This document shows, piece by piece, positions 38,801 through 43,106 of a DNA stretch of 64,000 nucleotides. How positions within the stretch are numbered: the stretch's first letter is position 1; each line of letters opens with the position of its first letter. This stretch comes from Micromonospora sp. NBC_00389 (GTDB lineage Bacteria; Actinomycetota; Actinomycetes; Mycobacteriales; Micromonosporaceae), in the NCBI RefSeq assembly GCF_036059255.1, contig NZ_CP107947.1:744001-808000 (forward strand), in the 5' to 3' direction. Below the pieces are notes generated by a model that saw nothing but the letters and a program-made list of their open reading frames with translations, ran no database searches and was not told where the DNA came from. Made by a program: the position numbers and the translations under genes.

Positions 38801-40403
38801 CGGTTACCTCCGTGCGGGCGTCGGCCGGCGTCGGCGGCCGGAGCTGGGTCTTGCGTACCTTGCCGATCGCCGAGTGCGGCAGGGTGTCGACGAACTCGAC
38901 CGCGGTCGGGCACTTGAACCGGGCCAGGTTCCGTGCGCAGTGGGCGAGCAACTCCTCGCTGGTCACCGGCCGCCCCGGCGCCGGCACCACATACGCCCGC
39001 ACAGTCTCGCCGGTCCGGGGGTGCGGCACACCCAGTACCGCCGACTCGGCCACCCCGGGGTGCCCGGCGAGCACCACCTCCACCTCGTGCGGATAGACGT
39101 TGAACCCGTTGACCAGGATCAGCTCGCCGAGCCGGTCGACCAGGAAGAGGTCACCGTCCTCGTCGGCGTACGCGATGTCGCCGGTGCCCCACCAGCCGTC
39201 GGCGTCCGGGCCGCCCCGACCGTCCGGCCAGTAGCCGGAGAAGAGATTGGGGCCGGACACCACGATCTGCCCCGGGTCGGTGCCCGGCGCCACGTCGGAG
39301 ATGTCCAGCTCATCCGGGTCATCGTCGGGGACGGCCAGGCCGTCGCGCCACAGCTCAGCCCCGTCCGCGCCGACCAGGCGCAGCCGCACGCCGGGCAGCG
39401 GCCGACCGATCGAGCCGACCTTGGCGACCCCGCCGACCAGGGTGGAGGTGAGCACGGGCGCGGTCTCGGTGAGGCCGTACCCGACGTGCACCGAATGACC
39501 GCTCGCCTCGGTGAAGCGCGCCGCGACCGCGGGCTCCAACGGCGCCGCGCCGCAGACCGCCACCCGCACCGTCGCGGTCGCCGCGCGGACCTCGTCCGCA
39601 CCGGCCCACGCCAGGAACATCGACGGTACGCCGACCAGCACGCTGACCCGGTGCCGGGCGATCTCGTCCAGCCCCACTGTCGGCCCCAGCTCGTCGAGCA
39701 GCACGCCGGTCGCGCCATGGTGGACGACCGCGCCGAGCCCCGAGTTGAGCCCGTACGCGTGGAACAGCGGCAGAGCCAGCAGCACGGTGTCGCCCGGACC
39801 GACCACCGGCGGCTCGATCCGGTCGACCTGCTCGTGGTTGGCCAGCAGCGCGCGGTGCGAGAGCATCGCGCCCTTGGGCCGGCCCTCGGTGCCGGAGGTG
39901 TAGAGCAGTACGGCCAGGTCGTCACCGCCCCGGTGCGGGCGCGGCTGCTCGGGTGCGTCGGCGGCCGGCGGTGGCGGCGCGCCGTGCACGGCGGTGAGCG
40001 CGGGCAGTTCGGCGGCCACCTCGGCGACCAGGCCCCGGACCCGGTCGGTGCCGATCAGCACCGACGCGCCGGAGTCGGCCAGCACGTGCCGCAGCTCCGG
40101 TGCCGTGAAGCCGGGGTTGACCGGCACCGCGATCAGCCCGGCGCGCAGGGCTCCGAGCCAGCCGATCACGAAGTCAGGGCTGTTGGGCAGGGCGATCGCG
40201 ACGCGGGGCGGCGCACCGTCCGGGTCGGTGGGCGGCGCGGCGGTGGCCAGGCCGTGCGCGGCGGCGTCCACCGAGGCATCCAGTTCGGACCAACTGAGCG
40301 TCCGGTCGCGCCAGTGCAGCGCGGCCCGGTCACCGTGGTCGAGAGCCGCCCGGCGGACCCGGTCGGCGAGGTTCGGCGCGGGGTTTTCCGCTGCGTCCTG
40401 CAC
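38790..40403 (-). CDS. AMP-forming acyl-CoA synthetase
   Basis: An ANL-superfamily enzyme that activates a carboxylate as acyl-AMP and then acyl-CoA. ATP loop LLYTSGTEGRPKGAMLSHRA, YGLTETAPVLTST motif, and the hinge motif GWWGTGDIAYADEDG/FLVDRLGELI with the catalytic Lys in the IGKVRKTQLR tail are all present. The open frame extends to 40679. I choose GTG 40403 (537 residues, N-terminus QDAAENPAPNLADRV), since upstream residues are low complexity. GTG 40421 is an alternative. The substrate is unknown. Confidence 0.85.
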   Translation of the reverse strand: MQDAAENPAPNLADRVRRAALDHGDRAALHWRDRTLSWSELDASVDAAAHGLATAAPPTDPDGAPPRVAIALPNSPDFVIGWLGALRAGLIAVPVNPGFTAPELRHVLADSGASVLIGTDRVRGLVAEVAAELPALTAVHGAPPPPAADAPEQPRPHRGGDDLAVLLYTSGTEGRPKGAMLSHRALLANHEQVDRIEPPVVGPGDTVLLALPLFHAYGLNSGLGAVVHHGATGVLLDELGPTVGLDEIARHRVSVLVGVPSMFLAWAGADEVRAATATVRVAVCGAAPLEPAVAARFTEASGHSVHVGYGLTETAPVLTSTLVGGVAKVGSIGRPLPGVRLRLVGADGAELWRDGLAVPDDDPDELDISDVAPGTDPGQIVVSGPNLFSGYWPDGRGGPDADGWWGTGDIAYADEDGDLFLVDRLGELILVNGFNVYPHEVEVVLAGHPGVAESAVLGVPHPRTGETVRAYVVPAPGRPVTSEELLAHCARNLARFKCPTAVEFVDTLPHSAIGKVRKTQLRPPTPADARTEVTDVH

Positions 40404-40838
40404 GGTGACCGAGTCTGGCACAGCGGACGACGACAGGCCACGCCCGACGGTCGGGCCAGCGGCCGGACAACCGTGCCGCGCGCGAGTCCCGTAGGTGGGA
40501 CCAGCCACGGTGCCGCCAGCGACCCGATCAGGTCCCGCCGATGGGACGGATGACCCTTCCGCCGGCGGTTCGGCCGGGCCCGCACCGACCACCCGTCGGG
40601 GCGGGTCAGCCGAACGGACGACGCACCCCGACCAGGGGATCCACCCTGGATCATCGAGCCGGTCCAAAGTCAATCGCACACGACGGACAACCGGTCCGCC
40701 GACGGTGCGACGGAGAAGGAAATACTTCCGCCCTGTGTAACGGACTTGCCACGCGCGGGTGACGTTGGCCCTATCATCACTCGGGTTGGCTCACCCCATT
40801 TGCCGTGAGTCGACACCCCTCAGCCCGAGGAGGCCCCC
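40404..40838. promoter_or_regulatory. 435-nt gap; possible sigma-gene promoter
   Basis: The only good promoter-like signal is TATCAT at 40772-40777, about 60 nt before the short coupled ORF. A -35 is not clear: TTGCCA lies 20 nt upstream, which is too far for a good match. Frames here have weak coding bias. I see no repeat, RNA gene or further ORF in this stretch. Confidence 0.4.
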
Positions 40839-40994
40839 GTGCCTGTGAGCGCATTGGACCAGCACCTCAAGGGGAACTGCCGCCCGTCGGCACACCCCGG
40901 AACCGTCCTGCCCGACCGGAAGCCCGGTCGGTCCGCACCAACGACCCGCAAACCGGCCCGTCCGGTGACCGACGGGACGGGGGCGTCGCGGTGA
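40839..40994 (+). CDS. 51-codon ORF coupled to sigma factor gene
   Basis: AGGAGG at 40828-40833 lies 5 nt before GTG 40839, the best ribosome binding site in the region. The predicted peptide (VPVSALDQHLKGNCRPSAHP... , 51 residues) is basic and Pro-rich. Its stop codon (TGA 40992-40994) overlaps the sigma-factor GTG (40991-40993). In this stretch this frame has about 80% GC at third positions, against about 60% in the sigma frame, supporting it as the translated frame. Either a genuine upstream peptide or a frameshifted N-terminus of the sigma factor. Confidence 0.6.
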   Translation: MPVSALDQHLKGNCRPSAHPGTVLPDRKPGRSAPTTRKPARPVTDGTGASR

Positions 40995-41941
40995 CCACCT
41001 TCGGTTACGCGGAACGCCCGGTCGGCCTGACCGGTTCGGCGGCACGCTCCCACGTCAACGAGCGGCCGGCGGCCCGCGCGCCGCTGGACGATCCACACGG
41101 CACCGCCGTGCGGGGTGACGGAACGGCGAAGCGGATCCGCAACCGGCCACACCACAACGAGCCGCCGCCACGACCGGCGGTGCCCGGTGGGAACGCGAAA
41201 CCGGCCGGCGGTCGGGTCGCTGTGCCGGCCCGTCCGACCATGCCGGTCCAGGGCCGACGGGTCGGCGACACGCCGACGGCGACCACCGATCCGTCGGCGG
41301 GCGAGACGGCGGTGATCCCGGCGGTGCCGGCCACCACCACCCCGACCGGCTTTCCGAGCCGACCGGACCCGTCCGACCCCGCCACCGAGGTCTGGACGCT
41401 GGTCGAACGGGCTCAGGCCGGTGAGTCCGAGGCGTTCGGTCTGATCTACGACCGGTACGTGGACACCGTGTTCCGGTTCGTCTACTTCCGGGTCGGCAAT
41501 CGCCAGCTCGCCGAGGACCTCACCTCGGACACCTTCCTGCGGGCGCTCAAGCGGATCGGCAGCTTCACCTGGCAGGGCCGCGACCTCGGCGCCTGGCTGG
41601 TGACCATCGCCCGCAACCTGGTCGCGGACCACTTCAAGTCCGGCCGGTACCGGCTGGAGGTCACCACCGGCGACGTGCTCGACGCCGATCGGGAGGACCG
41701 GGGCCCGGAGGGCAGCCCGGAGGCGGCGGTGGTCGAGCACATCACCAACGTCGCCCTGCTCACCGCCGTGAAGCAGCTCAACCCGGAGCAGCAGGAGTGC
41801 ATCGTGCTCCGCTTCCTCCAGGGCTTCTCGGTCGCCGAGACGGCCCGTGCCATGGGCAAGAACGAGGGTGCCATCAAGGCCCTCCAGTACCGGGCGGTCC
41901 GCGCGCTGGCCCGACTCCTGCCCGACGGTTTCCAGCCATAG
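40991..41941 (+). CDS. BldN-like ECF sigma factor with N-extension
   Basis: This 316-residue ECF sigma factor carries sigma-2 (EVWTLVERAQAGESEAFGLI; YDRYVDTVFRFVYFRVGNRQ) and sigma-4 (LNPEQQECIVLRFLQGFSVA; GAIKALQYRAVRALARL). Before these lie ~130 low-complexity residues rich in Pro, Arg and Thr, resembling the pro-sequence of Streptomyces BldN. GTG 40991 overlaps the stop of the 51-codon ORF. The frame remains open to 40805, but third-position GC drops before 40991. The gene order (bldN-like then membrane anti-sigma, near hemA/rex) matches Streptomyces, from memory. It probably directs developmental or envelope genes. Confidence 0.85.
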   Translation: MTTFGYAERPVGLTGSAARSHVNERPAARAPLDDPHGTAVRGDGTAKRIRNRPHHNEPPPRPAVPGGNAKPAGGRVAVPARPTMPVQGRRVGDTPTATTDPSAGETAVIPAVPATTTPTGFPSRPDPSDPATEVWTLVERAQAGESEAFGLIYDRYVDTVFRFVYFRVGNRQLAEDLTSDTFLRALKRIGSFTWQGRDLGAWLVTIARNLVADHFKSGRYRLEVTTGDVLDADREDRGPEGSPEAAVVEHITNVALLTAVKQLNPEQQECIVLRFLQGFSVAETARAMGKNEGAIKALQYRAVRALARLLPDGFQP

Positions 41942-42230
41942 CTTCCTTCCGCGGGACCGATGGGCATCGATCGATGTCCGGGCAGCTCAAGTCGGTCCCA
42001 ACTGGTGATAACGATCACATTCCGTGATTTCCGCCCCACCAGGCCCGTAACCCGTGCCCGGTCCGCCGCGTTTCTCCGGGTGCGACCGGTGGTTGCCCCG
42101 GCAGGCCCGGGTCACCGGGGTCCGACCGGCATACCGGACGGGGCCCCACCTCCGTGGTGTCACACTGCCGCCCGGTCGCTGGCAACGACGGCGGCCGACC
42201 GGCCGTGACCAGCGAGAGGAGGTGCCTGCG

Positions 42231-43106
42231 GTGGACAACATCCTCTTCTCCCGCCGGCGCGCCGAGCGCTTCGCGCAGCTTCTCGACGAGGCCAACGGCG
42301 GCCGGCGACACCATGTCCGGTCCCGGGCCGACGGCCAGCTCGCGCCGCTCGTCGCAGTGGGCCAACGGCTCAGCGTCGACCCTCCGGCGGTCGAGGTGAA
42401 CCCCGACTTCCGCACCGGCCTGCGGGCGATGCTGCTCGCCACCGCCGAACGGGAAGGGCTGGGCACCCCGGCGGCTGTCGAACCGGCCGCCACGCGTCCC
42501 GCCGCCGCCACCCGTGGCTCGCTGCTGCCGGCGGTGACCGCCCGTCGGGCCCGCGCCCGCGGCGCGATCCTGATCGGCATCGCCGCTGGCGCCATCGCCG
42601 TCTCCGGCATCTCGGCCGCCAGCGAGAACGCGGTCCCCGGCGACGCGCTGTACGGCATGAAGCGCTCGACCGAGCGCGCCCAACTCGCCCTGGCCAGCTC
42701 GGACATCAGCCGTGGCCAGCTCTTCCTGGACTTCGCCCGGACCCGGCTCGGCGAGGCCGCCGAGCTACGCGGTGACCGGATCGGTTACAGCGCGGTCCTC
42801 GACGACATGGACGCCGACACCCGGCAGGGTGTCCGCCTGCTCACCGCCGCGGCGGTGCAGCGGGCCGAGCCGGCGAGCCTGGACACCGTCAACACCTTCG
42901 TCACCGGCCAGCGCCGGGCGGTGGGCAACCTGGTCGACGGGGCCACCCGGGCCGACCGGGAGCGGACGCGGCGGTCGCTGGAGCTGCTGGACAGCGTCCG
43001 GGAGCGCTCGGACGGGCTGCGCGCGGCGATCGGCTGCGGCCTGCCGGCGCCGACCGGCAGTGATGCCCTCGGGCCTGTCCCGACCGCCTGCCCCGGCACC
43101 CGCTGA
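42231..43106 (+). CDS. DUF5667-type anti-sigma factor (RsbN-like)
   Basis: A 291-residue single-pass membrane protein. The N-terminus (VDNILFSRRRAERFAQLLDE) is soluble, a single helix (AILIGIAAGAIAVSGISAAS) spans the membrane at about 120-140, and the outer part has the DUF5667-type segment NAVPGDALYGMKRSTERAQL. GTG 42231 has AGGAGGTG 6 nt upstream. It follows the BldN-like sigma factor by 289 nt, the position of RsbN in Streptomyces, and so is a likely anti-sigma factor. No HCC zinc-binding motif is present. Confidence 0.75.
   Translation: MDNILFSRRRAERFAQLLDEANGGRRHHVRSRADGQLAPLVAVGQRLSVDPPAVEVNPDFRTGLRAMLLATAEREGLGTPAAVEPAATRPAAATRGSLLPAVTARRARARGAILIGIAAGAIAVSGISAASENAVPGDALYGMKRSTERAQLALASSDISRGQLFLDFARTRLGEAAELRGDRIGYSAVLDDMDADTRQGVRLLTAAAVQRAEPASLDTVNTFVTGQRRAVGNLVDGATRADRERTRRSLELLDSVRERSDGLRAAIGCGLPAPTGSDALGPVPTACPGTR

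Follow-up and report, generated by a model that had tools for sequence, protein, structure and literature searches.

A leader ORF overlapping the start of a BldN-family sigma factor gene in Micromonosporaceae, and its probable role in relaying ribosomes

Related systems and the features of the locus

The closest tested analogue of the locus described here appears to be the upstream ORF (uORF) of ppe2 in M. tuberculosis, where a structured leader partly masks the Shine-Dalgarno (SD) sequence of a short ORF, uPPE2, that overlaps the main ORF at AUGA (PMC11260477). The ppe2 product is reported to be made mainly by termination-reinitiation, with the short ORF termed a landing pad; mutation of the SD or start of uPPE2, or displacement of its stop, cuts the output of the main ORF, and the products are mainly separate with a minor fusion (PMC11260477). 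NTGA is the commonest overlap and is among the well coupled spacings, and uORFs that only deliver a ribosome have been named as a possibility (PMC12548453). In Streptomyces, rsbN adjoins bldN, bldN is a target of BldD, and control of BldN is described as transcriptional (by BldD) and through the anti-sigma factor RsbN (PMC4255298).

The locus in the window, meaning the whole 64,000-nucleotide stretch of DNA that was analysed, is made of component parts that are known in kind:

40828..40833, + strand: AGGAGG, the SD sequence of the uORF, read from the sequence
40839..40994, + strand: 51-codon uORF (GTG...TGA) with a GTGA overlap with the sigma factor gene; its stop TGA is at 40992-40994
40979..40983, + strand: GGGGG, SD-like sequence of the sigma factor gene, 7 nt 5′ of the sigma GTG
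40991..40994, + strand: GTGA stop-start overlap; the sigma GTG is 40991-40993
40991..41941, + strand: BldN-family ECF sigma factor of 316 aa (TIGR02952 equivalog; Sigma70_r2 and r4_2)
42231..43106, + strand: DUF5667 protein (PF18915) in the rsbN position, putative anti-sigma factor of BldN

A sequence-only reading of this DNA had already placed AGGAGG at 40828-40833, the GTG of a 51-codon frame at 40839 and a GTGA junction with the sigma GTG at 40991, all of which were confirmed. Its description of the uORF SD as the strongest in the region holds for the window, where the anti-SD duplex is -10.1 kcal/mol for the uORF and -8.6 kcal/mol for the sigma factor, but does not extend to a general rule, the uORF SD outscoring the sigma SD in 27 of 79 distinct loci. 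GC at codon positions 1, 2 and 3 of the short frame is 0.71, 0.67 and 0.82 in the window; the short frame does exceed the sigma frame at the third position, as had been remarked (0.82 versus 0.67), but the contrast is modest because the third position of the sigma frame is the second position of the short frame (0.67). The sigma reading frame in the window is open upstream as far as 40805.

The sigma factor scores 209.7 bits against TIGR02952, above the curated equivalog cutoff of 206.45, and the match begins at residue 137, which bears out the estimate of about 130 residues ahead of the sigma domain. The N-terminal extension of Streptomyces BldN undergoes proteolytic processing. By eye, the N-terminal extension, otherwise of low complexity, has a recurring helix-like motif (ARxALxxGLxxLRxxL) in several family members, for example L194 and L164. 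The DUF5667 gene lies directly downstream of the sigma factor gene, and DUF5667 is a domain that RsbN presumably bears. Upstream of the leader, positions 40722-40742 of the window (ATACTTCCGCCCTGTGTAACG) look like a BldD site, judged against the BldD consensus, and a similar sequence is present in loci of the Actinoplanes group.

Like uPPE2-ppe2, the bldN uORF has its own SD and an NTGA overlap with the main ORF. Unlike ppe2, which has no SD, the sigma factor gene has the SD-like GGGGG 7 nt before its GTG; the leader of ppe2 is a B12 riboswitch, whereas that of bldN matched no Rfam family; and bldN has a sister group that uses the same leader start directly. The locus resembles NTGA-coupled gene pairs in its -4 nt overlap, with coupling via a nearby stop and start, and differs in that such pairs are described mostly for two genes, whereas here a drifting short ORF is kept family-wide before a developmental sigma factor (PMC12548453). 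It shares with Streptomyces bldN-rsbN the BldN-family sigma factor, the N-terminal extension and, putatively, an adjoining rsbN-type gene (PMC4255298).

Literature searches of open-licence papers yielded no recognised account of a uORF or leader of bldN, nor any report in print of a family-wide leader and relay ORF before a developmental sigma factor with a direct-start sister group. The seven loci of group g27, presumably Streptomyces from the sigma N-terminus, differ from the present locus in that their sigma SD is CTGGGAG and they have no candidate start with an overlapping stop and no leader pattern. Streptomyces-like leaders upstream of the sigma factor gene (L104-L107, L110-L112) carry a near-invariant GTGATGGAAGCTCTGCCTCTGGGAGTCCCGTG, which includes an out-of-frame ATG shortly before the GTG.

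The stop-start overlap across the family

The first set of loci to be read numbered 93: the window, 12 loci from close relatives, and the best 80 of the 571 loci that a species-genome scan identified as encoding a relative. In this set, built on the best 80 of 571, an SD-GTG anchor is present in 83 of 93 loci (3 of the 83 were later identified as duplicates), and all 83 have a short ORF that ends in RTGA at the sigma start (62 GTGA, 21 ATGA) and a sigma frame that stays open from RTGA onward. The ten loci without an anchor are two incomplete ones, L095 (anchor beyond the search span, later scored RTGA), the degenerate L077, and six of the Actinoplanes group without the uORF SD and start.

A wider tally covered 164 loci, from which 10 duplicates, one match without the sigma core (the second in G216) and two incomplete loci were removed; the 151 informative loci that remain are a non-random sample, composed of best-match rows of the species scan and later picks favouring odd genera. 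A short ORF ending in RTGA occurs in 114 of the 151, with 16-66 codons and 27 different lengths. In three loci (L186, L212 and L165) stop and start lie within -1, +2 or +4 nt, and in one (L191) a GTGA at a sigma-like start is followed by a frame break further on. The sigma factor starts directly at the leader GTG in 19, and neither state is seen in the other 14, namely nine loci of the Actinoplanes group, L205, L077, L213 and the paralogues L222 and L223. Twenty-seven lengths with RTGA kept require at least 26 length changes that preserved the phase; the chance of this would be about 4e-13 if phase were free, a bound from which L165, L186, L191 and L212 are excluded as lying outside the exact RTGA class (L165 is a real frame change).

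Among 32 outgroup loci from outside the family, 17 have at least one in-frame candidate start overlapped by a stop if no SD is required, one has a short SD-led ORF of 10-75 codons that ends in RTGA, and none has the leader pattern. The single case, L113, lacks the leader pattern; its 32-codon SD-led ORF ends in RTGA at a sigma start that is in frame. In distant genera, a fuzzy search for the codons of the uORF yielded chance matches for the most part. The Micromonospora form of the uORF is rarely annotated: the window peptide had two matches among about 5.8 billion clustered proteins. In a single genome (G224), a second BldN-like gene (L222) with 62% identity has no leader.

The 19 direct-start loci belong to six genera (g82, g85, g89, g91, g92, g104). 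They have the CCTC-loop-GAGGAGG leader, and the GTG that follows begins the sigma factor itself, with zero stops in between; the suggestion that the two frames merge in some species was therefore right in a form. In a 42-row tree of the sigma core, the short-ORF rows and the direct rows each fall on one side of a branch, at 91/75 and 79/75, supports that are not starred and come from a bootstrap that had not settled; in a quick tree of 77 rows with many weak forks, the two states need one change. Because the short-ORF and direct rows are sister groups, the tree does not settle the order of the two states; the absence of the leader from the 32 outgroup loci is slight evidence for direct start having come first.

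Nine loci of the Actinoplanes group (L047, L048, L065, L073, L075, L076, L204, L206 and L207) are without the uORF SD and start and have kept GTGAGTCATG and an AAGGAGG SD at the sigma factor gene. By this comparison they would amount to a natural deletion of the relay, and five of the nine, placed in the quick tree, cluster together (support 84). In Allorhizocola (L077 and L208) the leader has degenerated, an upstream ATG may lie in an open sigma frame, and by eye the old end of the uORF still runs into ATGA.

The leader RNA

The leader upstream of and within the uORF includes the following elements:

40772..40777, + strand: TATCAT, -10-like element of the inferred promoter; found by alignment, common to Micromonospora-type loci and absent from the Actinoplanes group
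40785..40814, + strand: predicted hairpin P1 (40785-40794 with 40805-40814, 10-nt loop)
40816..40833, + strand: hairpin P2, which holds the SD (CCCCUC 40816-40821 with GAGG 40827-40830 and GG 40832-40833)
40836..40857, + strand: start-codon hairpin P3 (CC-C-GUGC, 40836-40842, with GCAU-U-GG, 40851-40857), from RNAalifold on a MAFFT alignment
40878..40892, + strand: hairpin P4 inside the uORF (TGCCG-CCCGT-CGGCA), from covariation in the alignment

A covariance model of the leader built from 38 sequences matches 125 of 150 family genomes and 35 of 44 genera (E<=0.01), in searches that over more than 40 genomes use stricter filters by which weak matches can be lost. Of 126 family leader places, 51 were read, picked for genus spread and weak scores. 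The sigma factor gene is present in 18 of the 20 genomes examined out of the 25 without a leader match. In its own genome the model has one match (4.7e-17; the next has E 0.69), and in 148 genomes of the class it has three, two of them in its own genus and one weak (E 0.0048), in whose 3,064-base stretch the sigma core is absent. Rfam gave a single match at E<=5 in 40600-41200, to a CRISPR-repeat family on the other strand, below cutoff (E 0.48), and a simple sigma-70 scan found no promoter.

P1 has 96.4% of its cells paired in 33 sequences and 75.7% in 38 when Actinoplanes is added. On its own, the P1 stretch has a mean folding z of -1.31 in 89 short-ORF rows and -0.87 in 19 direct rows, only a moderate improvement on shuffles, and P1 could also be a DNA inverted repeat. 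P2 is paired in 99.0% of cells (33 sequences) and 98.7% (38, with Actinoplanes) and lacks two-sided change because it is almost invariant. CCTC lies 3-7 nt 5′ of GAGGAGG in 74 of 75 leader-like sites versus 4 of 176 other sites, a contrast inflated because the leader-like set was itself chosen by an upstream ACCY.

P3 was found unprompted by RNAalifold, with 99.0% of cells paired in the 33 sequences. Its outer pair, formed between the SD-GTG spacer and the first base of codon 7, is C-G in 22, G-C in 7 and U-A in 4 and is unpaired in none of the 33. P3 has 11 cells with two-sided change versus 2.0 in shuffles (33 sequences); as the pair types follow lineages (all four U-A outer pairs are from Catellatospora), these represent at least two exchanges, a few events rather than eleven, and covariation counted by pair or by pair type is not above shuffles (450 and 448 of 500; 500 of 500 with Actinoplanes). 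With Actinoplanes added, P3 is 81.7% paired: 15 of the 38 sequences lack the outer pair, 15 have an inner U-G pair, and a control shifted by +2 equals the P3 score (0.166 versus 0.164). Of the 30 distinct short-ORF leaders, 25 have a P3-like stem of four pairs and a loop of 8, as do 16 of the 19 direct leaders, versus 84 of 2676 other GTGCC sites. Conservation centres on the start region, and P2 and P3, holding the SD and the GTG, are predicted in both the short-ORF and the direct-start state. P4 has two-sided change in four of five pairs and 89.7% of cells paired, in an alignment that is uncertain for the more distant rows.

The folding energy of the leader is unremarkable in the window (z -1.17 and -0.15) and below z -2.5 in two of seven leaders. 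Accessibility of SD and start is 0.20 and 0.08, only somewhat lower than the 0.32 and 0.30 of nine background starts. Two further pairings considered by eye were dropped because clear covariation was missing: a long-range one between the sigma SD and the uORF start, and a pseudoknot in which the CCCC of the P1 loop would pair with GGGG/GGGTG close to codon 12.

A probable ribosome relay and its alternatives

The uORF is probably a real leader ORF that relays ribosomes to bldN. The sequences themselves show the ORF, its overlap, the retention of frame, the conserved leader, the exchange of pairs in P3 and the existence of two states; we infer uORF translation, reinitiation and limits set by the hairpins on access, as follows. 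Transcription would start near 40784, and the 5′ leader would fold into P1, P2 with the SD and P3 with the GTG start. Ribosomes entering at the leader start would translate the uORF as far as GTGA, where they would terminate and then restart on the overlapping sigma GTG, and BldN output would follow initiation at the leader start. The leader would also work without the uORF, in the sister group that appears to start BldN directly from the same leader GTG. A single event would have split off the first codons as the uORF, or fused them; coupling would have kept expression, and the body of the uORF would then have drifted in sequence and length with frame and overlap kept.

In the 79 distinct loci, the mean duplex energies of the sigma and uORF SDs are -10.3 and -10.1 kcal/mol, and the sigma SD is at least as strong in 52; this speaks against strict dependence of the sigma factor on uORF translation, and coupling may add to direct initiation rather than replace it. 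In the window the sigma SD is the weaker one, and the folding prediction leaves it largely paired (mean unpaired probability 0.07).

Substitution rates from 25 distinct 51-codon loci of Micromonospora gave pS 0.138, pN 0.079 and pN/pS 0.57 for codons 1-20, and pS 0.426, pN 0.366 and pN/pS 0.86 for codons 21-45; pN/pS is lowest in the uORF frame, the other frames giving 1.03-1.33. The later codons thus appear to be kept open while hardly constrained as protein (near neutral), and the suppression of silent sites in codons 1-20 may be due in large part to RNA structure. With the codons beyond 20 near neutral, the data are better explained by a ribosome relay than by a functional peptide. The sequence-only reading had proposed that the peptide may control sigma synthesis by translational coupling: the coupling is strongly supported by the comparison, but the peptide as controller is weakly supported at best, codons 21-45 being near neutral and the silent sites of codons 1-20 also being held, as RNA structure predicts.

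A more far-reaching idea is that the P1-P2-P3 leader acts as a regulatory RNA specific to the Micromonosporaceae. By opening or closing the hairpins on the SD and start codon it would sense a developmental signal (a protein, a metabolite or the state of the ribosome) and so gate translation of the sporulation sigma factor, with the relay ORF between the gate and the sigma factor gene in most of the family; this is tentative and somewhat unlikely to hold.

Leader-peptide attenuation, by which the nascent peptide or its codons would sense a metabolite or translation state and ribosomes would stall in codons 1-20 with a switch in downstream structure, is improbable. The strong conservation of codons 1-20 in Micromonospora (VPVSALDQHLKGxCRP) and the lower pS there than in codons 21-45 speak for it, but P3 and P4 account at least partly for the silent-site suppression, the peptide differs among genera (lengths 16-66; VPQKAR... 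in Actinoplanes), a run of a single codon was not seen by eye in the uORF, and no terminator-like site was found on the + strand of 40400-42400.

There is a similarly small likelihood that the leader is conserved through control at the DNA level, by operators such as BldD sites near the promoter, with the uORF a by-product and the coupling only a repair. The preservation of frame and RTGA through 27 lengths is not predicted by such control, P2 and P3 sit on the SD and start, and the outer pair of P3 is CG, GC or UA in 33 of 33 sequences, although P1 also reads as a DNA inverted repeat and GTNA half-sites, as in the BldD consensus, are frequent nearby by eye. Streptomyces bldN being a BldD target is a further point in favour of DNA-level control (PMC4255298).

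That the uORF product is a functional small protein, such as a partner of BldN or RsbN, is highly improbable: it would be made beside the sigma factor and has the purifying signal of codons 1-20 (0.57), but its C-terminal half is near neutral, its sequence and length diverge among genera, Pfam and NCBIfam searches of the peptide gave no match, and it is absent from the 19 direct-start loci and 10 loss loci. A programmed frameshift or misread start giving one longer sigma protein from the uORF start, the former of which the sequence-only reading had entertained along with an accidental frameshift, can be set aside as scarcely credible because sigma-frame stops lie inside the short ORF in 27 of the 83 anchored loci, and the overlap is kept across the family, exact in GTGA and ATGA forms alike, with no slippery run seen by eye at the junction, despite the open sigma frame up to 40805 in the window, the single ORF from the leader start in 19 loci and the minor fusion product known for ppe2 (PMC11260477).

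Whether a developmental sigma factor is controlled at translation can be tested directly here, given a leader that occurs in 125 of the 150 family genomes and sister groups that have the same start with and without the relay ORF; those groups are also a natural before-and-after pair for the origin of coupled uORFs. In most of the relatives examined, the stop of a tiny gene overlaps the start of the sigma factor gene, apparently handing ribosomes loaded at the leader to a developmental regulator.
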